From Sandaracinaceae bacterium (GTDB taxonomy: Bacteria; Myxococcota_A; Polyangia; Polyangiales; Sandaracinaceae): a stretch of DNA of 59,083 nt. The position numbers were made by a program, and so were the translations under genes. Location of the stretch: NCBI GenBank assembly GCA_040218145.1, contig JAVJQK010000067.1:1-59083 (forward strand), given 5' to 3'. Positions 28,433-59,083 of this stretch are shown one piece after another; within the stretch, counting starts at the first letter, position 1; each line of letters begins with the position of its first letter. Below the pieces are notes generated by a model that was given only the letters and a program-made list of their open reading frames with translations, was not told the DNA's origin and made no database searches.

Positions 28433-31132
28433 CTACCAGGCGACGACGACGGGGATGTGCGAGTCGCTGCTGAAGCCTCGCCCGAGCTGGTAGGCGCCGC
28501 CCTCTCCCCAGCACCAGACGCCGCCTCCGCTCGTGCGCGCGCAGCTGTGCTCCGCCCCGGCCGCGACGGCCACGACGTCCGTGAGCGTCCCCGCGTCGAC
28601 CGGCGCGCGGGACGCCCGCCTCAGCCCATCGCCCAGCTGGCCGCTGCTCCCCGCGCCCCAGCAGGACGCCCTCCCCGAGCTTCGCGCGACGCACGCGTGA
28701 TCCCCCGAGGCGGCCAGGTCGATCGCGTCGGTGAGCCCGGTGACCGGGGTCGGCGTCAGCCGGTCAGCGGTCCCTCCGTCCCCGATCTGACCCAGAACGT
28801 TGTTCCCCCAGCAGCTCACGGCCCCGGCGGCTCGCCGCGCGCACGTATGGTTGCGCCCCAGGGCGATCTGAACCGCGTCGCTGAGCCCCGACACGACGAC
28901 CGGCGTCGACGCGCTCGTGGTCGTCCCGTCACCGAGCTGCCCGTCATAATTGGAGCCCCAGCAACGCACGGTGCCGTCCTCGAGACGCGCGCAGGCGTGC
29001 CGCTCACCCACGTGAACCTCGGCCACACCCGCCAGCCCCGGCACCACGGTCGGCGTCGACACGCGCCCAGGCGGCGCGCCCGCCGCGCTCCCGTAGTTGC
29101 TCCCCCAGCAGCGCACCGTGCCGTCAGCGGCGCGGGCGCAGGTCGCGGGGGGCCCGACGCTGAGCTGCGTGGCGGTGACGCCCGAGAGTCGGATCGGGCT
29201 CGGCCGGTCGGTCGTCGTGCCGTCGCCGACCTGGTTCAGCCCGTTCTCGCCCCAGCAATGAACCGACTGGTCCGTCGCCACGTAGCAGTGGGTGTCGTCG
29301 ATGGAGTGGTCGAAGTCGATGGCCGTCGGCGGGGGCACGGTGACCAGCGTCGGCGCTCGACCGAAGAAGAGGGTGGGGCCGGGAGTCCCCCAGCACAGCA
29401 GGCGACCGCTCGACAGTCGCGCACAAGCCGACGTCTCGCTCGCCCGAAGCCCGACCACCGTCTCGCAGCCGCCCGTCACGCAGGTGACCGCGCAGACGTT
29501 GCCGCACATCCCGCAGTCCGACTCGGCGGAGTCGAGATCGCGGCAAGCCCCCCCGCAGTCGGTCTCGCCGACGGGGCACTCGCACACTCCGCTCGAGCAC
29601 GTGCCGCCGCTCGGGCACCGGTTGCCACACGCGCCGCAATTGACCGGGCTCGAGTCGAGGACGACGCAGCGACCGTCACAAACCACCTCTCCGGCGGGGC
29701 AGCGGCACGCGCCCGCGTCGCAGCTCCCCCCGAAGGGGCAACGGTTGAAGCAGGCGCCGCAGTGCTGGTTGCTCGTCGAGAGGTCGGCGCAGAAGCCTCC
29801 GCAGAGCTCCCCATCGCCCGGGCACGTGCAAGCCCCGGCCATGCAGCCGTCCGACGCGGCAGGGCAGCGGGTATCGCACGCGCCGCAGTGGTCGTCGTCG
29901 CTGTCGAGATCCACACAGCGTGCGCCGCAGCGGACCTCCCCGTCCGGGCAGACGCAGGAGCCGTCCTGACAGAGCTGCCCTCCGGTGCACGTTCGGCCGC
30001 AGAGGCCGCAGTTGAAGCTGTCACTCGAGGTGTCCAGGCAGCGGCCGCAATACGTCTCGCCGGCCGGGCACGCGCAGACGCCGTCGACACAGGACTGCCC
30101 GGGGCCGCAGCGCATCCCGCACGCGCCGCAGTGGTTCGGGTCGTTGAGGGTGTCGACGCAGAGGCCGGAGCAGGCGACGCCTCCCATGGGGCAGTCGCAC
30201 ACGCCGCGAACGCAGGGGGCGCCGGCCGGGCAGGCGCGGCCGCACGCGCCGCAGTGCATGGGGTCCGCGTCGAGATCGACGCAGTCGCGGCCGCACAGCG
30301 CGCCGCCGTCGGGGCACGTGCACGTCCCGCGGACGCACCGCTGCGCGGAGGCGCAGACGTTCCTGCACCCGCCGCAGTTCATGGGGTCCGCCTGCACCGA
30401 CAGGCACGCGCCACCGCAGCGCATCCCTCCGTCGGGACAGGCGCACGATCCGCGCACACAGACCTCGTCGACGGCGCAGCGCACGCCGCAGTCGCCGCAG
30501 TTCGTCGGATCCTCGAACACGTCGACGCAGCCGCCCTCGCAGACCCGCTCGCCGAAACCGCAGCCGCAGTCCCCGTCCAGACACGGCACGCCATCCGGAC
30601 AGGTGGACCCACAGCGACCGCAGTGGAGGTCGTCGGAGGAGAGATCCACGCAGCGCCCCCCGCAGTCCGCCGTGCCTTCGGGACAGACGCAGGCCGCGTC
30701 GTCGCAGACCGCGCCGTCGGGGCACGCGCGGCCGCAGCCCCCGCAGTGCCGAGGGTCCTCGGGCGCGACGACCTCCCCCTCACAGAACCGGCAGTCGTCC
30801 GCGGCGCCGTTACAGTCGTTGTCGAGCCCGTCCCCGCAGACCTCGCGCGACGCGTTCGGCACGCAACCACAGACGCGCGCGTCGATGTCCGGCTGCACGC
30901 ACTCCCAGTTGCGGCCCGCGGGGCAGTCCGTGCGCGCGCCGCACACCCGCGAACAGACGGCGCGACCGTCCTCGAGCGCGAGGCAGATGCCGCTCTCGCA
31001 GTCCTCCGAGACCTCGCACGGGGCGCCGAAGGCCGCCAGCGCGACGGCTCCGTCGAGCGCGTCGAGGGGCGGGCTCTCGCAGCCCAGCGCCAGCATCGAG
31101 AGCGCGAGCCAACCGACACGCCTCAACGCCAC
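28433..31132 (-). CDS. Giant Cys-module plus RCC1 lipoprotein, copy 2
   Basis: The product is about 899 residues from the second of two GTGs (31138, 31132), chosen by analogy with its paralogue at 31656-34970. The signal ends LSMLALGC. It then has a disulfide-type domain, an N-D-C-N/D-G motif (GDGLDNDCNGAADDC), and eleven units of about 40 residues built on CVDL-x-D-x-x-HCGxCG-x-x-C-x(6)-C-x-x-G-x-C-x-CP. The last 340 residues hold seven RCC1 units (GDGTTT ... HxCAR ... DGTVRCWGxN), enough for one seven-bladed propeller. It is probably a surface adhesin or receptor; no enzyme motif is seen. The start overlaps the upstream gene's stop. Confidence 0.88.
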   Translation of the reverse strand: MALRRVGWLALSMLALGCESPPLDALDGAVALAAFGAPCEVSEDCESGICLALEDGRAVCSRVCGARTDCPAGRNWECVQPDIDARVCGCVPNASREVCGDGLDNDCNGAADDCRFCEGEVVAPEDPRHCGGCGRACPDGAVCDDAACVCPEGTADCGGRCVDLSSDDLHCGRCGSTCPDGVPCLDGDCGCGFGERVCEGGCVDVFEDPTNCGDCGVRCAVDEVCVRGSCACPDGGMRCGGACLSVQADPMNCGGCRNVCASAQRCVRGTCTCPDGGALCGRDCVDLDADPMHCGACGRACPAGAPCVRGVCDCPMGGVACSGLCVDTLNDPNHCGACGMRCGPGQSCVDGVCACPAGETYCGRCLDTSSDSFNCGLCGRTCTGGQLCQDGSCVCPDGEVRCGARCVDLDSDDDHCGACDTRCPAASDGCMAGACTCPGDGELCGGFCADLSTSNQHCGACFNRCPFGGSCDAGACRCPAGEVVCDGRCVVLDSSPVNCGACGNRCPSGGTCSSGVCECPVGETDCGGACRDLDSAESDCGMCGNVCAVTCVTGGCETVVGLRASETSACARLSSGRLLCWGTPGPTLFFGRAPTLVTVPPPTAIDFDHSIDDTHCYVATDQSVHCWGENGLNQVGDGTTTDRPSPIRLSGVTATQLSVGPPATCARAADGTVRCWGSNYGSAAGAPPGRVSTPTVVPGLAGVAEVHVGERHACARLEDGTVRCWGSNYDGQLGDGTTTSASTPVVVSGLSDAVQIALGRNHTCARRAAGAVSCWGNNVLGQIGDGGTADRLTPTPVTGLTDAIDLAASGDHACVARSSGRASCWGAGSSGQLGDGLRRASRAPVDAGTLTDVVAVAAGAEHSCARTSGGGVWCWGEGGAYQLGRGFSSDSHIPVVVAW

Positions 31133-31659
31133 GTGCACCCCGGCTGTTGGTTACAGCTGAGCTCGAGCGCGAAGGACTCACAGGGCGTGCTCGTGCCGGC
31201 GCAGCCCTCGGACCAGCGGCACCCGTCTTGGCTCGAGCAGCTGAAGCGCTCCCCGAAGAGACGACACGACCTCGGAGATCCCGAGCACGAGCCGGAGCCC
31301 GACGATCGCCAGTAGCAGCCGAGGTGGTCGTTGCACGCCCCCCGACTGCTCTGGAGCGAGCAGGGATACGGCACGCCTTCGCAGTCCGACTCCCACCGGC
31401 AGCCGTCGCCCTCCGTGCAGCTGAGCTCACTCGCGCGCAGCAGACAGCTCCGCGCCACGCCTCGACAGGAGAGCGCGGGCGCGAGGCCCGAGTCGATCCC
31501 GCCATCCGCGGTGGGCACGGGAGCGACCATCGCGGCGTCGAAGCGGACCTGCCCGCCCTCCGGCCCGCGAGCCGGCGGCGCGCAGGCGACCGCCGCCGTG
31601 GCGAGGAGCGCGACGAGCGCGAAGCCCACCGGGGCCTGGCAGCGATGGGCGGAGCTCAC
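31123..31659 (-). CDS. W/C-repeat lipoprotein, copy 2
   Basis: A 178-residue product from a GTG at 31659 that overlaps the stop of the upstream giant gene by 4 bp (GTGA). The signal ends AAVACA. The mature part has four units of the form C-x-G-x(3-4)-C-x(8)-C-x(4)-GCxW, ending in GCTWR. It is a clear paralogue of the 206-residue protein at 34961-35581, and its own stop overlaps the start of the next giant gene in the same way. The family is unknown. Translational coupling on both sides suggests fixed stoichiometry with its neighbours. Confidence 0.8.
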   Translation of the reverse strand: MSSAHRCQAPVGFALVALLATAAVACAPPARGPEGGQVRFDAAMVAPVPTADGGIDSGLAPALSCRGVARSCLLRASELSCTEGDGCRWESDCEGVPYPCSLQSSRGACNDHLGCYWRSSGSGSCSGSPRSCRLFGERFSCSSQDGCRWSEGCAGTSTPCESFALELSCNQQPGCTWR

Positions 31660-34600
31660 CAGCGCACGGCCGTGGGGGTGAGGCGGGGCGACGAGGTCCC
31701 GTCTCCCACCTGAGCGCGGTAGTTGGAGCCCCAGCAGCGCACGTCCCCCGCCGTCGTCGTGGCGCAGGTGTGCTGGTCCCCCACGTCCACCGAGCTCGCG
31801 TCCGTCAGCGCCGGGGTGGCGGTCGGCCAGGGGGTGTCGGTGGTGGTGCCGTCGCCGAGCTGACCGCCGTGGTTCCGGCCCCAGCAGCGCATCCCACCGC
31901 CCGTGCGCACCGCGCAGGTGTGCCACGTGCCGACCGCCACGTGGGAGGCGTCCGTGAGGGTGGGCACCGCCAGCGGCGTGCTCCGGGTCGTGGTCGAGCC
32001 GTCGCCCAGCTGACCGTACCCGTTGTACCCCCAGCAGCTCACTCGGCCGTCCATGTGGCGCGCGCAGCTCACCGAGCCACCCATCGCGATCTGCACCGCG
32101 TCCGTGATGCCCGTCACTGCGACCGGGGTCGTGGTGCTGGTCATCGTGCCGTCCCCGAGCTGGCCGTACGTGTTGTTGCCCCAGCAGCGAACCGTGCCGT
32201 CCGTGAGTCGCGCGCAGCTGTGGTTGTGGCCGCTCCGCACCTCCGCCACTCCGGCGAGCCCGGAGATCGGGGCCGGCGTCGTCACGTAGCTGCCCGTGGT
32301 GCCCGCAGCGTAGCCCTGGCCCCAGCACTCGACGCTGCCGTCCGAGAGCCGGGCGCAGCTCGCCGTCCCCCCCACGGTGACCTGCGTGGCCGTGGTGACG
32401 CCCGTCAACACGACGGGCGCGTAGCGGTTCGTGCGCGTTCCGTCACCCGCCCCGTAGTAGTAGTTGTAGCCCCAGCAACCGAGCGTGCCGTCGCTCTCGA
32501 CCCAGCAGTGGGTCAGGCCGTTGGTGTCGAAGTCCGAGACCTGGGTGGGCGTGTCACGACGGGTCGGCGTGGAGCCCGCGCCGAGGCCATATCGGTTGTA
32601 GCCCCAGCAGTAGAGTCGCCCGTTCGACATGACGGCGCAGGAGGCCTCGGCGCCGAGGCCGAGCGAGCCCGCCGTCGCGCAGCTCCCGCCCGCGCAGACC
32701 AGTGAGCACGTCGTGCCGCAGGCGCCGCAGTTCATCTCGTCGTCCTCGACGTCGATGCAGGCGCCGCCGCAGACGGTGGCGCCGCCCGGGCAGGTGCAGG
32801 TCCCGCTCAGACACGTCGCCCCGGTCGCGCACGCGGTGCCGCAGCTGCCGCAGTGGCGCTCGTCGCTCGTGGTGTAGGTGCACGCGCCGTCGCACACCTC
32901 GGAGCCGCCCGGGCAGGCGCAGGTGCCGCTGACGCAGGTCGCGCCGGTCGCGCACGAGGTGCCGCAGGCGCCGCAGTTGCCCTCGTCCGACTGGAGATCG
33001 GTGCACGCGCCGCCGCAGACGGTCTGGGCGCCGGGGCAGTAGCAGGCGCCGCTGAGGCACGTCGCGCCGGTGGCGCAGGTGGTGCCGCACGTGCCGCAGT
33101 TCAGCTCGTCGTCCTGGGTCGAGGTGCACCGGCCGCCGCAGACGCTGCCGCCGCCAGGGCACGTGCACGTGCCGCTCAGGCAGGTCGCGCCGGTGGCGCA
33201 GGTGGTGCCGCACGCGCCGCAGTTCAGCTCGTCGTCCTGCGTGGTGGCGCAGCGCCCCCCGCAGACGACGCCGCCGCCCGGACACCCGCAGGTGCCCGCG
33301 GTGCAGACCGCGCCGATGGCGCAGGTGGTGCCGCACGCGCCGCAGTGGGCCGTGCTCGAGGAGAGATCCACGCAGCGGCCATCACAGACGACCTGGCCCG
33401 CGGGGCACTCACAGGTGCCGCCGTTGCAGCTCTGCCCCGTCGCGCAGGCGTTGCCGCAGCTCCCGCAGCTGGCCGTGCTCGAGGAGAGATCCACGCAGCG
33501 ATCGCCGCACACGGTCTGCCCCGACGGGCACGCGCAGGTGCCGCTCACGCACGACGAGCCCCACGGGCAGCGGTTGCCGCAGGAGCCGCAGTTGTTGAAG
33601 TCGCTGGACAGGACGCGGCAGCTCGACCCGCAGAGCGAGCCGCCGCCCGGGCACTCACACGCGCCCGCGATGCACGACTGCGCCGAGGGGCAGACCACCC
33701 CGCAGCCGCCGCAGTTGTAGCGGTTGCCCTCGACGTCGGTGCAGCGCCCGCCGCAGGAGATCTGTCCGGTCGGGCACTCGCACACGCCCTCGACGCAGCT
33801 CCGTCCGCCGGCGCAGCCCGTCCCGCAGCGGCCGCAGTTCCGGATGTCGGTGTCGGTGTCGGTGCAGCCCGCGCTGCAATACATCTCGTCACCCGGGCAC
33901 GCGCACGCGCCGCTGCGACACACCTGGCCCGACGCGCACCGGACCCCGCAGCCCCCGCAGTTCAACGGATCGCTGGTGGTGTTGCGGCAGGCGCCGTCGC
34001 ACACCGGCCCGCCGCCCGGGCAATCGCACGCGCCGTCGACGCAGGCGACGCCGGCCGGGCACTCCTGCCCACAGCCGCCGCAGTTCAGCCGGCTGACGTC
34101 GAGGTCCACGCACGAGTCGCCGCAGAGCGCGCCGCCGCCCGCGCACGTGCACGCGCCGCGGTCGCACCGCTGCCCGGTCACGCACGCGTTGCCGCAGAAC
34201 CCGCAGTGGGCCTCGTCGTCGTCGGTGCTGACGCACACTCCATCGCAGCGCTCGCCGCCGTCGGGGCAGACGCAGGCGCCTCCGTCGCAGACCTCGTCGC
34301 TCTCGCAGGTGACGCCGCACCCGCCGCAGTTCAGCGCGTCGGAGGTGACGTCCACGCAGACGTCGTCGCACGGCATCTCGCCGTCGTCGCAGCCGCAGAG
34401 CCCCTCGATGCAGGGCACGTCGAACGCGCAGGCGGTGCCGCAGCCGCCGCAGTGGTTCTCGTCGTACGCGGTGTCGACGCAGCGCGCGCCGCACTGGATC
34501 TCGTCGGCCGGGCACACACAGCTCCCCGCCTCGCAGAGCGCGCCTGACGGGCAGGCGATGTCGCACCCGCCGCAGTGACGGACGTCGTCCATCGGGACCG

Positions 34601-34970
34601 CGACCCCGTCGCAGATCCGGCAGTCGTCGGTCGCGCCGTCGCAGTCGTTGTCGAGCCCGTCGCCGCAGATCTCCTCGGTGGCGTCGGGGACGCAGCCGCA
34701 CACGCGCGCGCCGAACCGGTCGGGCTGCACGCAGCCCCAGTTGCCGCTGTCGGGGCAGTCCGCGTCCGTGGCGCAGCCCCGGGTGCAGAACGCCCGGTCC
34801 GCCGCGATCTCGAGGCAGAGCCCGCTGAGGCAGTCTCCGCTGACGCCGCAGGCCTCCGTGAACTCGGCCATGGCGCCGCCGTCGCCGCCCATCGGCCGAT
34901 CGCCTTCACAGGCCATGAGGAGGAGGCTCGCCGCGGCGAGCGCCCAGAGGAAGTTGCGCTTCAGTACCAC
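31656..34970 (-). CDS. Giant Cys-module plus RCC1 lipoprotein, copy 1
   Basis: About 1104 residues from a GTG at 34970 (GTG at 34976 also in frame). A signal ending LLLMAC follows directly. Order of parts: a short Cys domain, GDGLDNDCDGATDDC, sixteen Cys modules of about 40 residues centred on HCG/NCGxCG, then seven RCC1 units with repeated CWGxN. Modules 12-16 are nearly identical (CATGATCLSGTC), pointing to recent expansion. The roughly 140 Cys imply an oxidised extracellular fold. It forms a cassette with the 206-residue lipoprotein upstream and is duplicated by the next two genes. Confidence 0.9.
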   Translation of the reverse strand: MVLKRNFLWALAAASLLLMACEGDRPMGGDGGAMAEFTEACGVSGDCLSGLCLEIAADRAFCTRGCATDADCPDSGNWGCVQPDRFGARVCGCVPDATEEICGDGLDNDCDGATDDCRICDGVAVPMDDVRHCGGCDIACPSGALCEAGSCVCPADEIQCGARCVDTAYDENHCGGCGTACAFDVPCIEGLCGCDDGEMPCDDVCVDVTSDALNCGGCGVTCESDEVCDGGACVCPDGGERCDGVCVSTDDDEAHCGFCGNACVTGQRCDRGACTCAGGGALCGDSCVDLDVSRLNCGGCGQECPAGVACVDGACDCPGGGPVCDGACRNTTSDPLNCGGCGVRCASGQVCRSGACACPGDEMYCSAGCTDTDTDIRNCGRCGTGCAGGRSCVEGVCECPTGQISCGGRCTDVEGNRYNCGGCGVVCPSAQSCIAGACECPGGGSLCGSSCRVLSSDFNNCGSCGNRCPWGSSCVSGTCACPSGQTVCGDRCVDLSSSTASCGSCGNACATGQSCNGGTCECPAGQVVCDGRCVDLSSSTAHCGACGTTCAIGAVCTAGTCGCPGGGVVCGGRCATTQDDELNCGACGTTCATGATCLSGTCTCPGGGSVCGGRCTSTQDDELNCGTCGTTCATGATCLSGACYCPGAQTVCGGACTDLQSDEGNCGACGTSCATGATCVSGTCACPGGSEVCDGACTYTTSDERHCGSCGTACATGATCLSGTCTCPGGATVCGGACIDVEDDEMNCGACGTTCSLVCAGGSCATAGSLGLGAEASCAVMSNGRLYCWGYNRYGLGAGSTPTRRDTPTQVSDFDTNGLTHCWVESDGTLGCWGYNYYYGAGDGTRTNRYAPVVLTGVTTATQVTVGGTASCARLSDGSVECWGQGYAAGTTGSYVTTPAPISGLAGVAEVRSGHNHSCARLTDGTVRCWGNNTYGQLGDGTMTSTTTPVAVTGITDAVQIAMGGSVSCARHMDGRVSCWGYNGYGQLGDGSTTTRSTPLAVPTLTDASHVAVGTWHTCAVRTGGGMRCWGRNHGGQLGDGTTTDTPWPTATPALTDASSVDVGDQHTCATTTAGDVRCWGSNYRAQVGDGTSSPRLTPTAVRW
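32715..33345 (-). repeat. DNA tandem repeats of about 120 bp inside the giant lipoprotein gene
   Basis: About five units with a period near 120-123 bp encode Cys modules 12-16 of the giant lipoprotein. Phrases such as GCCACCGGCGCGACCTG recur almost unchanged, while the earlier modules in the gene have diverged. This marks recent in-frame expansion and a possible source of length variation. Confidence 0.8.
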
Positions 34971-35581
34971 GAGCACCCCGGCTGGCTGTTGCAGGCGTAA
35001 GAAGAGAAGTACCCGCTGCAGGTCCTGGCCACGCCGAGGCAGTCCCCGTCCCAGCGGCAGCCTTCCTGCCCCGTGCAGGAGGAGCTGCTCGAGTAGGAGC
35101 TGCAGGAGCGCGCGGAGCCGGAGCAGTCGTCGCTGAAGGTGCTCCAGTAGCAGCCGTCCTGGCGGCTGCAGGAGTAGCTGCTGTACCGCGAGTAGCAGCT
35201 CCTCGCGACGCCAGAGCAGTCCTCGTCCCAGCGACAGCCGTCGACCTGGGAGCAGCTCGTCCGCGTGGCCCGGCCGTAGCAGCCGATCGGGACGCCGTTG
35301 CAGCGGGGCTCGGAGGGGCGCACGCCGGAGTCGCGCGGCGTCGTCACGCCGGAGTCGCTGGACGAAGCGCGCGCGTCGGCGGGCTCCACGTCGATCATCG
35401 CCGCGTCGAAGGTGAGCACGCCACCGTCGGGGCCGCGGAGCATCGGAGGCGCCGGGCCATCGCAGGCGGCCAGGGTGAGCGCCGCGAGGGCGACGCCGAG
35501 ATACAGCTTCTGGAACGACAACGCGGCTCTCCCACGCGCGCCGAGGAGGGCGCGGCCGGGGGACGCTATTTCCAGCGCCAT
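34961..35581 (-). CDS. W/C-repeat lipoprotein, copy 1
   Basis: 206 residues from the ATG at 35581. A TTG at 35521 lies closer to the lipoprotein signal (KLYLGVALAALTLAAC) and may be the true start. After an Asp/Ser linker come four units C-x-G-x-x-R-x-C-x(8)-C-x(4)-GCxW, the middle ones rich in Ser and Tyr. The last residues are GCSWY and the stop overlaps the GTG of the giant gene by 10 bp. It is paralogous to the protein at 31123-31659. Function unknown; secreted and disulfide-bonded by inference. Confidence 0.8.
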   Translation of the reverse strand: MALEIASPGRALLGARGRAALSFQKLYLGVALAALTLAACDGPAPPMLRGPDGGVLTFDAAMIDVEPADARASSSDSGVTTPRDSGVRPSEPRCNGVPIGCYGRATRTSCSQVDGCRWDEDCSGVARSCYSRYSSYSCSRQDGCYWSTFSDDCSGSARSCSSYSSSSSCTGQEGCRWDGDCLGVARTCSGYFSSYACNSQPGCSWY

Positions 35582-35648
35582 GAACCGTCAAGGTAAGCGC
35601 AATTGACGAGCACCCTCGTTCGAGCCTGCGTTTTCAGACAATTCGCGT

Positions 35649-35681: not shown

Positions 35682-36440
35682 TCACTCGCAGGCGAAGGCC
35701 GGGATGCAGCGGTCCGTGTAGCAGAGCCCGTCGCCCTCGGGCACGGTGCCCTCGGGACAGTTCGGAGCGACGCGCCGGCAGGCGGTCGTGCAGCTGTCGC
35801 CGGTGAGCGGGACGCAGACGGGCGGGGTCACCGGGTCGGTGTCGTCGATGGCGGGCACCGCGGGCACGCAGCCGGCGACGCTGCAGCTGTCGTCGTCGAT
35901 CACGACCGCGTCCGCGCAGGTCGGGGCGCTCGGGAAGCAGCCCCACGCGGGCACCTGACCGCAGCTCGGGCTCCGGCAGGTGACGAACGGGACGCAGCCC
36001 TGGTAGTCCGGGTTGGTGCAGTCCGCGCAAGGCCCGTCGGTGCAGCTCGGGCAGCACGAATCGTCCCAGACCGGCGCGCAGTCCGTGTTCGCGAAGCACG
36101 CCACCGCGCCGAGGCCCTCACAGGGGTCGGGGATCGTGCCACAGGCGGGGGCGGCGCGGTCCGCGATCAGGACCGGGCAGCCCTGCGCGTCGGTGCTGCG
36201 GATGAACGGCCAGCCGTCGAAGCCGGCGATCGTGGCGGAGCACGCGTCCGCGCTCGCGGCCCATCCGCCCGCGGGCAGGGGCGGGTCCCCGGGCGAGCAA
36301 CCCGCGAAGTCGGCGATCGGGCAGCAGACGCCGCCCCCGTCCACCTCGGGGACGCTCCCGTCGGGCTCCGTGTCACCGCCGTGGGAGGAGGAGCACCCGG
36401 CGAGGGCAAGGAGGGAGAGGAGTGCCAGCGTGTGCCGCAT
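35682..36440 (-). CDS. Cys-rich lipoprotein
   Basis: A 252-residue product from the ATG at 36440 (in-frame ATGs at 36446 and 36461 are alternatives). The signal ends LLALAGC. The mature protein has about 26 Cys, including CCPSCTDGPCADC and CSVAGCVPAV, and small repeated blocks of the form C-x(3)-C-x-P. It begins 44 bp after the stop of the riboswitch-controlled gene on the same strand, so it may be part of that transcript. The family is not recognised. Confidence 0.75.
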   Translation of the reverse strand: MRHTLALLSLLALAGCSSSHGGDTEPDGSVPEVDGGGVCCPIADFAGCSPGDPPLPAGGWAASADACSATIAGFDGWPFIRSTDAQGCPVLIADRAAPACGTIPDPCEGLGAVACFANTDCAPVWDDSCCPSCTDGPCADCTNPDYQGCVPFVTCRSPSCGQVPAWGCFPSAPTCADAVVIDDDSCSVAGCVPAVPAIDDTDPVTPPVCVPLTGDSCTTACRRVAPNCPEGTVPEGDGLCYTDRCIPAFACE

Positions 36441-36484
36441 CGTCATGAGGATACGACACACGCAAACACCGGGCCGGCGAGGTA

Positions 36485-37672
36485 CTACTCGACGAGCAGG
36501 AGGCCGCCCGCGAACTCGAGCAACATGCGGCCGCTGCCCGCCTCGTGCGCGACGTCGAAGAGGTTGCCCGAGGTGAGGTCCAGCGGCGCGCCGAGCGTGA
36601 TGCCGCTCGTGGCGTCGAAGGCGTCGACCGGGTACGCGCGCAGCCCGTCGAGGTCGAAGCTCGGGGTCAGGACCTGCACGACGATCATGTCGTTCACGAG
36701 GTCGAAGCTCGAGGGCAGCATCTCCGCCTCGCCGACGCGGACGCCGACCGCCTCGAAGTCGATGGGCGCGCCCGTGGTGAGGGCCGCCTCGATCGCGCTC
36801 GTCGCGACCACGTAGACGCGGCCCCCGTCGTCGAAGAAGCCGCCCGCGAGCACGTAGTCCGGCCCAACCGCCACGCCGCCCGAGAAGTTGCCGAGCCCCG
36901 TGCCGACGCGCGCGGTGGTCGTCTCGCTGCCGAAGCGAGCCGCGTAGAGCCCCTGGCCGCTGCCCGCGCCGTCGAAGCCCATGCCGTTGACGAGCAGGGT
37001 GTCGTCCGACATCCAGGCCGCGTCGAAGTTGCCGTCCGCGGCGAAGTCCGTGTGCGCCCCGTCCATGGTCACGACCGAGAACACCTGACCGCTGAACGTG
37101 GAGTCGCTGACCGTGTAGCCGAAGAGCGCGCGGCTCGCGTCGGGCGACACGGCGAGGTAGCCGCCGAGGAAGGCCATCACGTCGCCCGCGTGGGTGGCCA
37201 TGACGCTCCCGATCGGGCTCTCCGTGGGCTCGCTGGCGCCCATGGCGGCGAACGTCGCCAGATCGAAACGCGTGCCTCCGGCGACCGCCTCGCTGCGCAG
37301 GGTGAAGACCTGCGCCGGGTCACCCGCGTGCGCGCCGAAGCGGGCCGCGTCGCTGCAGAAGGTCCCGACCACGGTCAGGCTCTCGTCGAGGGCCGCGTCC
37401 CAGCCGCTCGTGTCGGCGCCGCAGGTGGCGACGCAGACGCCGCGCACCTCGGCCTCGTCGGCGCCGCAGCCGACGCCGGAGTCCTCGTCGACGCCTCCGT
37501 CGACGCCCGCGTCCTCTTCGACGCCCGTGTCAGCGGGATCGCCCGCGTCGGTGGGGCCGGCGTCGGTCAGGTCCGGGCCGCCGTCCATCATCTCGGTCTC
37601 GCCGTCGCACCCCACGAGGGCGAAGGCCACCATCAGCGCGCCGATGGGCGCGTAGCTACGAATCACGTTCAC
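36485..37672 (-). CDS. Beta-propeller-like lipoprotein under cobalamin riboswitch control
   Basis: 395 residues from a GTG at 37672 with GAGGA 8 nt upstream. The signal ends FALVGC and is followed by about 45 residues of Asp/Gly/Ala/Thr linker. The mature domain has repeated strands typical of a beta-propeller, such as GYLAVSPDASRALFGY, GVAVGPDYVLAGGFFDDGGRVYVV and DAAWMSDDTLLVNG. No enzyme motif is visible. The preceding B12 riboswitch implies a role in cobalamin capture or use. A surface propeller lipoprotein that binds B12 (BtuG) is known in Bacteroides; equivalence here is inference and homology is not claimed. Confidence 0.8.
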   Translation of the reverse strand: MNVIRSYAPIGALMVAFALVGCDGETEMMDGGPDLTDAGPTDAGDPADTGVEEDAGVDGGVDEDSGVGCGADEAEVRGVCVATCGADTSGWDAALDESLTVVGTFCSDAARFGAHAGDPAQVFTLRSEAVAGGTRFDLATFAAMGASEPTESPIGSVMATHAGDVMAFLGGYLAVSPDASRALFGYTVSDSTFSGQVFSVVTMDGAHTDFAADGNFDAAWMSDDTLLVNGMGFDGAGSGQGLYAARFGSETTTARVGTGLGNFSGGVAVGPDYVLAGGFFDDGGRVYVVATSAIEAALTTGAPIDFEAVGVRVGEAEMLPSSFDLVNDMIVVQVLTPSFDLDGLRAYPVDAFDATSGITLGAPLDLTSGNLFDVAHEAGSGRMLLEFAGGLLLVE

Positions 37673-37686
37673 GCTGCTGCTCCTCT

Positions 37687-37717
37687 GCCCCGCTCCCCGC
37701 GAGGCGTTTCGAGCGGG
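37687..37717 (-). promoter_or_regulatory. Candidate expression-platform hairpin
   Basis: On the minus strand CCCGCTC and GAGCGGG pair across a 15-nt loop, and the stem ends a few bases before the GAGGA ribosome site (37681-37685). No T-tract follows, so control of translation fits better than termination. The link to the aptamer upstream is inferred from position. Confidence 0.5.
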
Positions 37718-37781
37718 CGAGCAGTCGGAGCGCGAGAGCGCGACAGAAGCGCCTCCACACCCCGTGAAGGCTCGCCAGCTC

Positions 37782-37971
37782 GTGCGCGCGGCAGGTCTCC
37801 TGACTCGCCGGTTCCTCCGATCCAGGCCGCCTTCCCGACGCGAGCGTCAGTGGCTGAGTGGCCTGGACCGTCCCCGGTCACAGTGGCGGGGGCCGCGCCG
37901 GCTTCTCACCGGCTTCCCTCTTCGGAGCTCAGATCGAGCTCTTGTCCGTCTCGTGGACGGACCGCGTGCAC
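37782..37971 (-). promoter_or_regulatory. Cobalamin (B12) riboswitch aptamer
   Basis: Read on the minus strand, the segment has the family hallmarks. These are GGGAAGCCGGTGAGAAGCC (about 37919-37901), the B12-box core GCCACTGTGACCGGGGA (about 37887-37871), and the 3' motif GTCAGGAGACCTGCC (37804-37790). The closing P1 helix is GTGCACGCGG (37971-37962) against CCGCGCGCAC (37791-37782) with one mismatch. It ends about 110 bp before the GTG of the propeller lipoprotein gene. Binding of adenosyl- or another cobalamin is expected to reduce expression. Confidence 0.93.
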
Positions 37972-38088
37972 GTCGTTCGATTGTCAGACGACGCCCCCAC
38001 CCTGGGAGCGACGGGGCGTGCATAGACTTCGCGCGCGCCCCGGTCAAACGCCTCGACGCGGGGGGAGGCGGGCGGCCATCATCACGCC

Positions 38089-43247: not shown

Positions 43248-43396
43248 GTCCCCGGACCCCGAGCTGGGTATGTCGCGGCGGTCGCTCTGCGGCGTGACGG
43301 CCGTCGTGCTGGCGCGCGCGCCGGCGACCTCGAAGAAAGTGACGCTCGACAGGAAACCTCTCGGCGGCGCGCGCGATGGGGCCCGCCGGAGGTTCC

Positions 43397-45550
43397 ATGA
43401 GACATCGATACGCCCGCCTGCTGACGCTCGCGCTCGCCTGCGCGGCCTGTGACACCCCGCCCGTCGCCGACGACGCGGCCGCGCCCGAGGACGCGGCGAG
43501 CGCGTCCGACGCAGAGCCCACGCGCCCCGACGCCGCGCCGCCCGCCTGCGTCACGGACGCCGACTGCGACGACGGGCTCTTCTGCAACGGCCCCGAGCTG
43601 TGCGACCCCGCCCATCCAGCCGCCGACCCGCGCGGCTGCGCCTTCGACGGCATGCGATGCCCGGCGGCCGACGTCTGTGACGAGGACGCCGACCGATGCG
43701 AGCCGGCGCCGTGCGCGGGCGACGCCGAGCGCGTGACGGCCTACCGAGACGCCGACGGGGACGGATACGGCGACGCCGCCCGATCCATGCGGGTCTGCCC
43801 CGAGGACGCAGGACCGGGAAACGCGTGGTCGCTCCAACCCGACGACTGCGACGACACGAGACCCGGCGTCAACCCGGGCGCGACCGAGATCTGTGACCCG
43901 GCTGGCCGCGACGAGGATTGTGACCCGACCACCATCCATGGTGGCGACGGGGACGCCGACGGCGACGGCTACGTCAACGCGACCTGCCGCAACGGTCCCC
44001 TCGCCGGCGATGACTGCGACGACGCCTCCGCGGACGCCCACCCCGGCGCCGCGGAGATCTGCGACGGGCACGACAACGACTGCGACGGGACGACCGACGA
44101 GGGCGTGCTGATCACCTTCCACCGCGACGCCGACGGCGACGGCTTCGGCTGCGACCCGAGCGCCACCACCTGCCCCGCGCCGGTCGAGGCCTGCGCCGCG
44201 CCCACCGGGTACGTCGCCGACGCCCGCGACTGCAACGACGAGCCCTCCGACGGTGCCGCGCAGAGCCCCGATGTGACCGAGACCTGCAACGGCGTCGACG
44301 ACGACTGCGACGGCGCCGTGGACGTCGGGAGCGTCGACCTGGGGACGCGCGAACACTGCTCTGCGTGCTTCGACGACTGCCAGTTCAGCTGCAACGCTGG
44401 CACGTGCGAGCAGGCGGTCGACATCGACATGAGCTGGGATGCTCAGTGCGCGACGACGACGCTGAACAACCTGTATTGCTGGGGCCTCAACCGGGACGGC
44501 GCCGTCGGCGACGGCACGACACGGCCCGCGCATCGACCGGTGCGGGTCCTCGGCACGCCGACGACGGCCGAGGTCGAGTCGATGAGCCTGCACGGCAGGA
44601 CGAGCTGCGCGCTGACGCGCAACACCGGGACCGGCGTCGGCTCCGTGTACTGCTGGGGTGAAAACGACGACTACCAGGTCGCGGACACGGGCTCGACGCG
44701 GGTCTCCGTGCCCACGCTCGTGGGCTCGAGCTTCGAGAGCGTCGCGGTGAACCAGGACTCCACCCTGGAGGGCACGACGTGCGCGGCGCGGCACAGCGGA
44801 GGCTCGTCGACGGGCCTCTGCTGGGGGGCTCGCGTGCCGCGACGCGACGCCGGCGGAGAGTGGTCGATCGTCTCCTCGACGACGCCGCTCGAGCTCGGCC
44901 CCTCGTACCCGTCGCCGGTGGGCAGCGTCTTGAACGGCATGCCCTGCACGCTCAGCGCGGCCGGGCAGCTGACATGCTGGGGCACCAACCGGTGGGGTGA
45001 GCGGGGGATCGGCGCCACCGCAGCGCTCACCCCTCCGCCGGCCCAGGTCAGCTTGACACCTCCCGTGCTCCACGCGGTGGAGTCGGGACCGACGCGCTGC
45101 GCCCTGCGGGGCACGGAGGTCTGGTGCTGGGGCAGCGATAACACCGGCGGGCTCGGGGACGGCCCTCTCTCTCCCGACCGGTGCGGCAGCGAGTCGTTCG
45201 AAGTCGGATGCGCGCTGAGCCCGGTCCGGGTGAGCTCCCTCCCGCCCATCGAGCGCCTCTTCGGAGACGTGGGCGGGTTCTGCGCGCGCACCCCGGCCGG
45301 TGAGATGTACTGCTGGGCGGTCAACAACCGGCCGGGCGTCGAGCTGCTTCCGGGTCTCCCCACCACCGGGCCGACTCACAGCCCCGTTCGCGTGCCGTCG
45401 TTGGACGGCTTCGAGCGGCTGGTGGTGGGAAGCTACGGTGCCTGCGGGATAGACGCCGTGGGGGACGTCTACTGCTGGGGCAACGGCGCGCTGTCGCTTG
45501 GAACGAGCAGCGCACCGGGCGTCGCGCGCCTCCTCCCCCCGGCCCCCTGA
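43397..45550 (+). CDS. MopE-like plus RCC1 lipoprotein
   Basis: 717 residues from an ATG at 43397 with CCGGAGG upstream; an earlier in-frame ATG at 43376 lacks a site. The signal ends LACAAC. The N-terminal half has repeated MopE-type metal-binding motifs: DADGDGYGD, DCDDxxPGVNPGATEICD, GHDNDCDGTTDEG and GVDDDCDGAVD. Then comes a small Cys knot (HCSACFDDCQFSCNAGTC) and seven RCC1 units with CWGxN, including one CWAVNN. The RCC1 part matches the two giant lipoproteins at 28-35 kb, but the Cys modules are replaced by Ca-type repeats. Confidence 0.88.
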   Translation: MRHRYARLLTLALACAACDTPPVADDAAAPEDAASASDAEPTRPDAAPPACVTDADCDDGLFCNGPELCDPAHPAADPRGCAFDGMRCPAADVCDEDADRCEPAPCAGDAERVTAYRDADGDGYGDAARSMRVCPEDAGPGNAWSLQPDDCDDTRPGVNPGATEICDPAGRDEDCDPTTIHGGDGDADGDGYVNATCRNGPLAGDDCDDASADAHPGAAEICDGHDNDCDGTTDEGVLITFHRDADGDGFGCDPSATTCPAPVEACAAPTGYVADARDCNDEPSDGAAQSPDVTETCNGVDDDCDGAVDVGSVDLGTREHCSACFDDCQFSCNAGTCEQAVDIDMSWDAQCATTTLNNLYCWGLNRDGAVGDGTTRPAHRPVRVLGTPTTAEVESMSLHGRTSCALTRNTGTGVGSVYCWGENDDYQVADTGSTRVSVPTLVGSSFESVAVNQDSTLEGTTCAARHSGGSSTGLCWGARVPRRDAGGEWSIVSSTTPLELGPSYPSPVGSVLNGMPCTLSAAGQLTCWGTNRWGERGIGATAALTPPPAQVSLTPPVLHAVESGPTRCALRGTEVWCWGSDNTGGLGDGPLSPDRCGSESFEVGCALSPVRVSSLPPIERLFGDVGGFCARTPAGEMYCWAVNNRPGVELLPGLPTTGPTHSPVRVPSLDGFERLVVGSYGACGIDAVGDVYCWGNGALSLGTSSAPGVARLLPPAP

Positions 45551-56936: not shown

Positions 56937-57273
56937 GACTCCGACCGAAGCCGGAGCCACCCCTCGCTTCGCTCACCCTCGATGCATCAGCTTCCACATC
57001 GTGGCCCGCGCCTTGTCCGCCCAGTCCGCGGGCCCCTCCACGGCCTCGTCGCTCACGTATCCCAGCGCAGCCGCCGAGAGCAGCCACACGCGCGTCTCGC
57101 CGGCCGACCCATACGCCGTCCCGAACCGCTCCCGCTCGTGTCCGCCGCCCCGCTTCTCGCCTTCGGCCAGGTTCCCGACCACGCTCGCCGCGCTGTCGCG
57201 CATCTGCCGAGCGAGGTTCTTGTCGTGCTTCGCAACCTGTTCCCAGATCGGCTTCATCGAGCGCAGCCAAACG
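56937..57273. repeat. Duplicated block of about 337 bp, copy 1
   Basis: The block from GACTCCGACCGAAGCCGGAG to the window-end equivalent is repeated at 58746-59083 in the same orientation with roughly 90 percent identity by eye. It contains almost all of the four-helix-bundle gene and its 3' flank. Confidence 0.9.
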
Positions 57274-57299
57274 ATCGCTTCTTCGGTGATCCGGAGCAT
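56973..57299 (-). CDS. Four-helix-bundle protein (S23/Avd-like), copy 1
   Basis: 108 residues from an ATG at 57299. The pattern WEQVAKHDKNLARQMRDSAASVVGNLAEGEKR followed by GSAGETRVWL is the signature of the four-helix-bundle family named after proteins encoded in 23S rRNA intervening sequences. The family also includes Avd of diversity-generating retroelements, which forms a pentameric barrel and binds nucleic acid. Genuine function outside those contexts is unknown. Copy 3 at the window end is nearly identical. No reverse transcriptase is visible here. Confidence 0.88.
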   Translation of the reverse strand: MLRITEEAIVWLRSMKPIWEQVAKHDKNLARQMRDSAASVVGNLAEGEKRGGGHERERFGTAYGSAGETRVWLLSAAALGYVSDEAVEGPADWADKARATMWKLMHRG

Positions 57300-57383
57300 C
57301 TCGCCCCTCCATCGGAGACAACCCGGATGTCGACCTGACACCCTTCGTCCTCACACCGCCTGGCGCCGGAGGCGGGTGGGCTA

Positions 57384-57844: not shown

Positions 57845-57940
57845 ACGCCCTGCGCGCGGAGATTGCTGGAAGGGGTGTGCATTCGACGACGCGCCCGCAC
57901 TCACGCGACGCTGGACGCGAGCGCACGAGGAAACGCTCCC

Positions 57941-58264
57941 ATGAAGCTCCGCATCTACGACGACGCCGTCGCCATGGTCACCGAGGTCCGCGTCTACAGA
58001 CTCGCGATCGCTCGCGAGGACGCCGACCACGCTCGGCAGCTCCGCCGCGCCGCCAAGTCCGTCCCGCTCAACATCGCCGAGGGCGCCTACTCCCGCGGTC
58101 GCAATCGGCACAGCCGCTACCACACCGCGCTCGGCTCCGCGAACGAGGTCGTCGCTTGTCTCGAGGTCGCCGTCGCCGACGGAATCCTCGACTCCATCGA
58201 CCCCGACGTCCTCGACCGCCTCAACAAGATCATCGGCACCCTCGTCAAGCTCGCCGAGAAGTAG
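57941..58264 (+). CDS. Four-helix-bundle protein (S23/Avd-like), copy 2
   Basis: 107 residues from an ATG at 57941 with GAGGAAA 10 nt upstream. The frame is open further upstream but reads as shadow. Core motifs are AREDADHARQLRRAAKSVPLNIAEGAYSRGRNR and ALGSANEVVACLEVAV, typical of the family. It is a distant paralogue of copies 1 and 3, not a recent duplicate, and lies on the opposite strand from them. A strong hairpin follows the stop. Confidence 0.88.
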   Translation: MKLRIYDDAVAMVTEVRVYRLAIAREDADHARQLRRAAKSVPLNIAEGAYSRGRNRHSRYHTALGSANEVVACLEVAVADGILDSIDPDVLDRLNKIIGTLVKLAEK

Positions 58265-58745: not shown

Positions 58746-59083
58746 GACTCCGACCGAAGCCGGAGCCCCCCTCTCGCCTCGCTCAGCCGCGATGCATCAA
58801 CTTCCACATCGTCGCGCGCGCCTTGTCCGCCCAGTCTGCGGGCCCCTCGACGGCCTCGTCGCTCACGTACCCCAGCGCAGCCGCCGCCAGCAGCCACACG
58901 CGAGTCTCGCCCGCCGACCCGTACGCCGTGCCGAACCGCTCCCGCTCGTGCCCGCCGACCCGCTTCTCACCCTCGGCCAGGTTCCCCACCACGCTCGCCG
59001 CGCTGTCGCGCATCTGCCGAGCCAGGTTCCTGTCGTGCTTCGCCACCTGTTCCCAGATCGGCTTCATCGAGCGCAGCCAAACG
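58746..59083. repeat. Duplicated block of about 337 bp, copy 2
   Basis: This is the partner of 56937-57273, in the same orientation and running off the window end. Differences are scattered and mostly at third codon positions, so both copies appear to be under protein-level selection or the duplication is fairly recent. Confidence 0.9.
58783..59083 (-). CDS. Four-helix-bundle protein (S23/Avd-like), copy 3, 5' end outside window
   Basis: At least 100 codons of a near-identical paralogue of copy 1. The frame enters from the window edge with the residues WLRSMKPIWEQ seen in copy 1, so the true start lies beyond 59083 and the internal ATG at 59067 is not it. All core motifs are intact (RDSAASVVGNLAEGEKR, GSAGETRVWL). 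The ends of copies 1 and 3 match to the last residues (MHRG). Confidence 0.88.
   Translation of the reverse strand, partial: VWLRSMKPIWEQVAKHDRNLARQMRDSAASVVGNLAEGEKRVGGHERERFGTAYGSAGETRVWLLAAAALGYVSDEAVEGPADWADKARATMWKLMHRG

Follow-up and report, generated by a model that had tools for sequence, protein, structure and literature searches.

What does a lipoprotein contribute to a myxococcotal cell when its gene stands first behind a cobalamin riboswitch? The locus that raises this question lies in the window (the whole stretch of DNA analysed, 59,083 nt), which is contig 67 of an 11.06 Mb Sandaracinaceae genome. The sequence-only reading of the locus had likened the encoded protein to BtuG, the B12-binding surface lipoprotein of Bacteroides, and the likeness can be judged from the riboswitch, the protein, its predicted fold and its gene neighbourhood.

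A complete cobalamin riboswitch ahead of a lipoprotein gene

A scan of the whole window against Rfam returned one family only, RF00174 (Cobalamin), at positions 37773 to 37981 on the minus strand. The cmscan match scored 106.1 bits (E 1.4e-25) against a gathering score of 31.5 bits and covered model positions 1-189 of 189, so that the aptamer is complete, as had been claimed; its 5′ end extends 10 nt past 37971, where it was formerly thought to end. The aptamer sits in the 5′ leader of a 395-aa ORF on the same strand (36485 to 37672), 100 nt ahead of the GTG start codon at 37672. The leader proper (37673 to 37772, minus strand), delimited from the sequence, a terminator scan and the start-site listing, contains a Shine-Dalgarno-like GGAG at 37680-37683, upstream of the ORF. 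Because no intrinsic terminator was seen in the leader by the terminator scan, the riboswitch is likely to control translation, although leader folding (z -1.9) leaves the expression platform unsettled by fold alone. A promoter scan at the locus found nothing.

The 395-aa ORF has a third-position GC content (GC3) of 0.97, typical of coding sequence in a GC-rich genome, and this together with its homologues marks it as a gene; we refer to its product and relatives as family A. The protein begins with a lipoprotein signal peptide (37607 to 37672, minus strand) that ends in the lipobox LVGC (FALVGC), with Cys22 as the lipidated residue and Asp at position +2. An Asp/Gly-rich linker of 46 residues follows (residues 23-68; 37469 to 37606, minus strand), 16 of them acidic, so the earlier description of a lipoprotein with a long acidic linker stands. 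The remaining 327 residues (69-395; 36488 to 37468, minus strand) form a beta-propeller domain according to AlphaFold2 and VIA-align, with 43 acidic and 11 basic residues. Pfam gave no family for the protein up to E 1, DUF4465 included, and no NCBIfam family matches it. Of ten further homologous loci that we inspected, nine encode a lipobox; the exception, G275, carries an ordinary signal peptide.

Asp at +2 is an inner-membrane retention signal in Escherichia coli, and we know of no surface-display export signal for lipoproteins in Myxococcota; both points speak for a periplasmic or inner-membrane lipoprotein that acts after the receptor, for example as a periplasmic cobamide buffer. We regard this placement as very unlikely, since a long acidic linker separates the lipid anchor from the domain and the +2 residue varies among homologues (D, S, G or A). 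Moreover, it is Lys at +2 that tends to mark inner-membrane lipoproteins in Myxococcus xanthus, outer-membrane ones having no clear mark (PMC3222651). An outer-membrane anchor is therefore the placement that we carry forward as probable.

A cobalamin riboswitch precedes the family A gene at 11 of 15 readable homologous loci. Within Sandaracinaceae the pairing is complete, at seven of seven loci in six species (the window's own genome, G000, together with G004, G001 with two copies, G002, G006 and G008), whose proteins share 34-43% identity with the window protein. It persists in two genomes from other families of the same class (G067 and G075; 24-26% identity) and in one from another class, G417, where the riboswitch stands before an 810-aa lipoprotein in which the propeller domain occurs twice in tandem (L111:2712-5144, minus strand). 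The marginal homologue in G275 (E 2e-4; L113:7019-8881, plus strand) is propeller-like and exported but lacks a lipobox, and it carries a dockerin domain at its C terminus; its gene is preceded by a strong cobalamin riboswitch of 113.5 bits. A second riboswitch lies 3.5 kb further on in G275, ahead of a ribonucleotide reductase gene. Four weak homologues (G042, G303, G075:C26 and G541) had no riboswitch even at E up to 1. G083 was left out of the count, as its contig begins inside the lipoprotein gene.

Family A is rare: it is absent from the Sandaracinaceae species G003, G005 and G007 and from most of the phylum sample, and a single-sequence search of genome contigs matched only the same species, the Sandaracinaceae MAG MED-G138 (98% protein identity). 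The absence of the riboswitch at some homologues might suggest that the switch, though real, came to control this gene through accidental placement or decay in the lineage. That reading is far-fetched, for the pairing has been kept in six Sandaracinaceae species, in other families and in one other class, and as each genome has two to six riboswitches, such a placement would be expected by chance at about 1e-4 per gene. The whole 11-Mb genome contains just two cobalamin riboswitches, that of the window and another at C27:69777-69936, which together with the count across homologous loci excludes that riboswitch and gene came together by chance.

Predicted fold and likeness to BtuG

The AlphaFold2 model of the family A domain, built with 13 homologues, reached a pLDDT of 93.6 and a pTM of 0.91 and showed a beta-propeller made up almost wholly of strands, in agreement with the propeller-like strands noticed at the outset. 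Foldseek and VIA-align likewise put the domain among beta-propellers, with six-bladed structures as top matches. In VIA-align, where rows no more than 1 Z unit apart count as tied, the six-bladed Pizza6 designs (Z 18.4, rmsd 3.1, 235 aligned) were followed by NHL domains (Z 17.3), the seven-bladed G-beta (16.9) and TolB (16.8). The strand order of the model suggests six four-stranded blades closed by an N-terminal strand. The six-bladed TolB and NHL propellers, although among the nearest folds (Z 16.8-17.3), have no B12 role and no riboswitch and share about 9-16% identity with the domain; a search among viral structures gave generic propellers only. Highly conserved residues lie near one modelled propeller face more often than near the other (17 vs 7; Fisher p 0.03), but mean conservation is equal on both, so that the model gives no more than a hint of a ligand-binding face.

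In Bacteroides, the propeller lipoproteins of riboswitch-controlled btuB operons bind B12 (PMC6143338, PMC10404256). Family A resembles BtuG1, BtuG2 and BtuG3 of Bacteroides thetaiotaomicron (PDB 3DSM, 8BAI and 8PTF) in being a lipoprotein with a beta-propeller under cobalamin-riboswitch control, and these parts of the proposed counterpart hold. Kinship by sequence does not: a 13-row family A profile searched with hmmsearch against all PDB chains, the structures of BtuG1-3 among them, gave no match up to E 10. The number of blades seems to differ as well, six being suggested here whereas BtuG2 is a seven-bladed propeller (PMC10404256), and the host belongs to Myxococcota, whereas BtuG was reported as exclusive to Bacteroidetes in a search among human gut bacteria (PMC6143338). 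BtuG is absent among the best 50 structural matches listed for the family A model, an absence that does not exclude likeness to BtuG.

A closer counterpart is present in the same genome. Family B, a second family of propeller lipoproteins under cobalamin riboswitches, is encoded here by the second gene after the C27 riboswitch. Its model (pLDDT 73.5) aligned with BtuG1 in 8blw at Z 21.3 (297 aligned, rmsd 4.0), and with 8ptf at 21.0, 8bn0 at 20.8 and 3dsm at 20.2; WD40 propellers and cd1 nitrite reductase fall in the same Z range as BtuG for this model. Because BtuG1, BtuG2 and BtuG3 are among its best structural matches, any BtuG counterpart in this genome is family B, and on the strength of the model it is probably family B, not the window protein, that stands closer to BtuG. 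A kinship between families A and B was considered and rejected (profile-profile probability 0.2%). XusB, the xenosiderophore-binding lipoprotein of Bacteroides (PDB 9HQK), is also a propeller lipoprotein serving uptake through a TonB-dependent receptor; unlike what we propose here, its ligand is a siderophore, and it matches family B and is not among the rows listed for the window protein.

Family A could still belong to the BtuG family proper as a strongly diverged branch, given the broad fold in common and the arrangement of riboswitch, lipoprotein and adjoining receptor in G067 and G075. We consider this quite unlikely in view of the empty PDB profile search, the six-bladed top matches, and the far better fit of family B to BtuG with no profile similarity between the two families. 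From the comparison as a whole, the window protein probably works like BtuG at most, with family membership failing on sequence and on the gene adjacency in the window described below.

Receptor genes and the B12 economy of the genome

The neighbourhoods of the more distant homologues connect family A with transport. In three lineages (G067, G075 and G083) a TonB-dependent receptor gene lies within a few bases downstream of the lipoprotein gene, an arrangement that recalls the layout of Bacteroides B12 loci (PMC6143338). The order riboswitch, lipoprotein, TonB-dependent receptor can be read in G067 and G075, and G083 retains a lipoprotein fragment and the receptor at the contig edge. The G075 receptor has both expected domains (Plug 3.9e-19, beta-barrel 2.4e-14). 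The TonB-B12 model TIGR01779 was the second NCBIfam match for the receptors of G075 and G067 and fell far below its cut-off, so that sequence does not settle their ligand. The B12-uptake role put forward by the sequence-only reading nevertheless gains support, resting on the conserved riboswitch before the homologues and on the receptor directly downstream in these three lineages.

The third gene of the G075 and G067 operons encodes a lipoprotein of 622-634 aa with a C-terminal LIC_13355-like domain (L090:6198-8066, minus strand, and L089:5588-7492, plus strand), after which comes a small exported protein. Both third-gene products appear to fuse a propeller-like N-terminal part to the LIC_13355-like domain, a plan resembling that of BtuG1 of B. 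thetaiotaomicron, in which a propeller is fused to a BtuH domain. Extra lipoproteins are known from B12 loci elsewhere: ten cobamide-binding proteins, several of them lipoproteins, are known from Bacteroides B12 loci (PMC12751083), and BtuH and BtuJ (DUF4465) belong to riboswitch-controlled loci of this kind (PMC8941943, PMC12751083). The likeness stops there, as BtuH and BtuJ have other folds (a jelly roll in BtuJ), the window protein has no DUF4465 match, and a PDB profile search with the LIC_13355-like family found no homology to BtuH.

In contrast to BtuG, the Sandaracinaceae lipoprotein gene stands without an adjacent receptor. The one BtuB-like TonB-dependent receptor of the genome is encoded at C103, away from the window gene, with no riboswitch in the approximately 560 nt examined upstream. 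What follows the window gene after 23 nt is a gene for a 259-aa Cys-rich lipoprotein (35682 to 36461, minus strand), the second of a possible operon. Comparison of homologues showed it kept as the next gene in G004 only (L043:9750-10553, 41% identity); the gene after the family A homologue in G002 is unrelated to it.

The genome encodes the cobalamin-dependent methionine synthase MetH (E 7e-116) and just one FecCD permease, next to which lies a BtuF-like gene (BtuF being assigned by eye). CbiC catalyses a step of corrin-ring synthesis. It is absent from this genome, whilst seven of 14 control genomes were positive. From MetH, the one permease, the one BtuB-like receptor and the missing CbiC, the gene content fits, as expected, a B12 user or scavenger relying on uptake; CbiC was the sole biosynthetic marker examined and auxotrophy is not proven.

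Other cobalamin riboswitches in Sandaracinaceae stand ahead of metE, class I ribonucleotide reductase and BtuB-like receptors, which is a normal B12 regulon, and ahead of the LIC_13355-domain lipoprotein family (above the NCBIfam cut-off in G000). The C27:69777-69936 riboswitch precedes both a LIC_13355-type lipoprotein and the family B propeller lipoprotein (L019:7627-9668, minus strand). As metE and class I ribonucleotide reductase are B12-independent, a riboswitch alone is no proof of B12 binding, and the family A lipoprotein might serve the B12 economy by stabilizing the receptor or by binding another nutrient such as methionine or cobalt. We hold such a role to be unlikely, because a TonB-dependent receptor adjoins the gene in three lineages, as in Bacteroides B12 loci (PMC12751083).

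Proposed role and other lipoproteins of the window

Our data are best explained by a cobamide-capture lipoprotein that hands cobamide to a BtuB-like TonB-dependent receptor, a role that we consider likely and in which binding is a prediction. When intracellular cobalamin is low, the riboswitch would be open and the lipoprotein made; at high cobalamin the switch would close, probably by blocking the ribosome site. The lipoprotein would be exported and lipidated, then presumably anchored in the outer membrane with its propeller facing outward on the linker, where it could catch vitamin B12 or related cobamides and pass them to the receptor encoded at C103. We infer the outer-membrane placement, surface exposure, cobamide binding and hand-over, as well as the direction and level of regulation, from this combined evidence.

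In a broader form, this model would mean that Myxococcota evolved their own B12-capturing receptor lid, a propeller lipoprotein with six blades and no sequence kinship to BtuG. It would be used alongside a separate propeller that does resemble BtuG and lipoproteins of a third family, with cobalamin riboswitches controlling all three; we judge the chances of this broader form to be evenly balanced. The literature that we consulted on myxococcotal lipoproteins and cobalamin riboswitches does not address the matter. The window protein is probably a B12-catching lipoprotein of a kind undescribed before in this phylum. If family A binds B12, the strategy of equipping B12 receptors with propeller lipoproteins would extend to free-living Myxococcota and would have been built at least twice. 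The proposal also gives a testable function to a gene family that lacks a Pfam or NCBIfam model, and a possible marker of B12 competition outside the gut.

The window encodes further lipoproteins. Three large Cys-rich lipoproteins with terminal RCC1-like repeats (CWGxN...GQLGDG) are found at 28433-31138, 31656-35591 and 43376-45550, two of them nearly adjacent. Lastly, the contig end holds related copies of a short gene within 2.1 kb, at 56973-57341, 57863-58264 and 58783-59082, of which two share the LARQMRDSAASVVGNLAEGEKR type.
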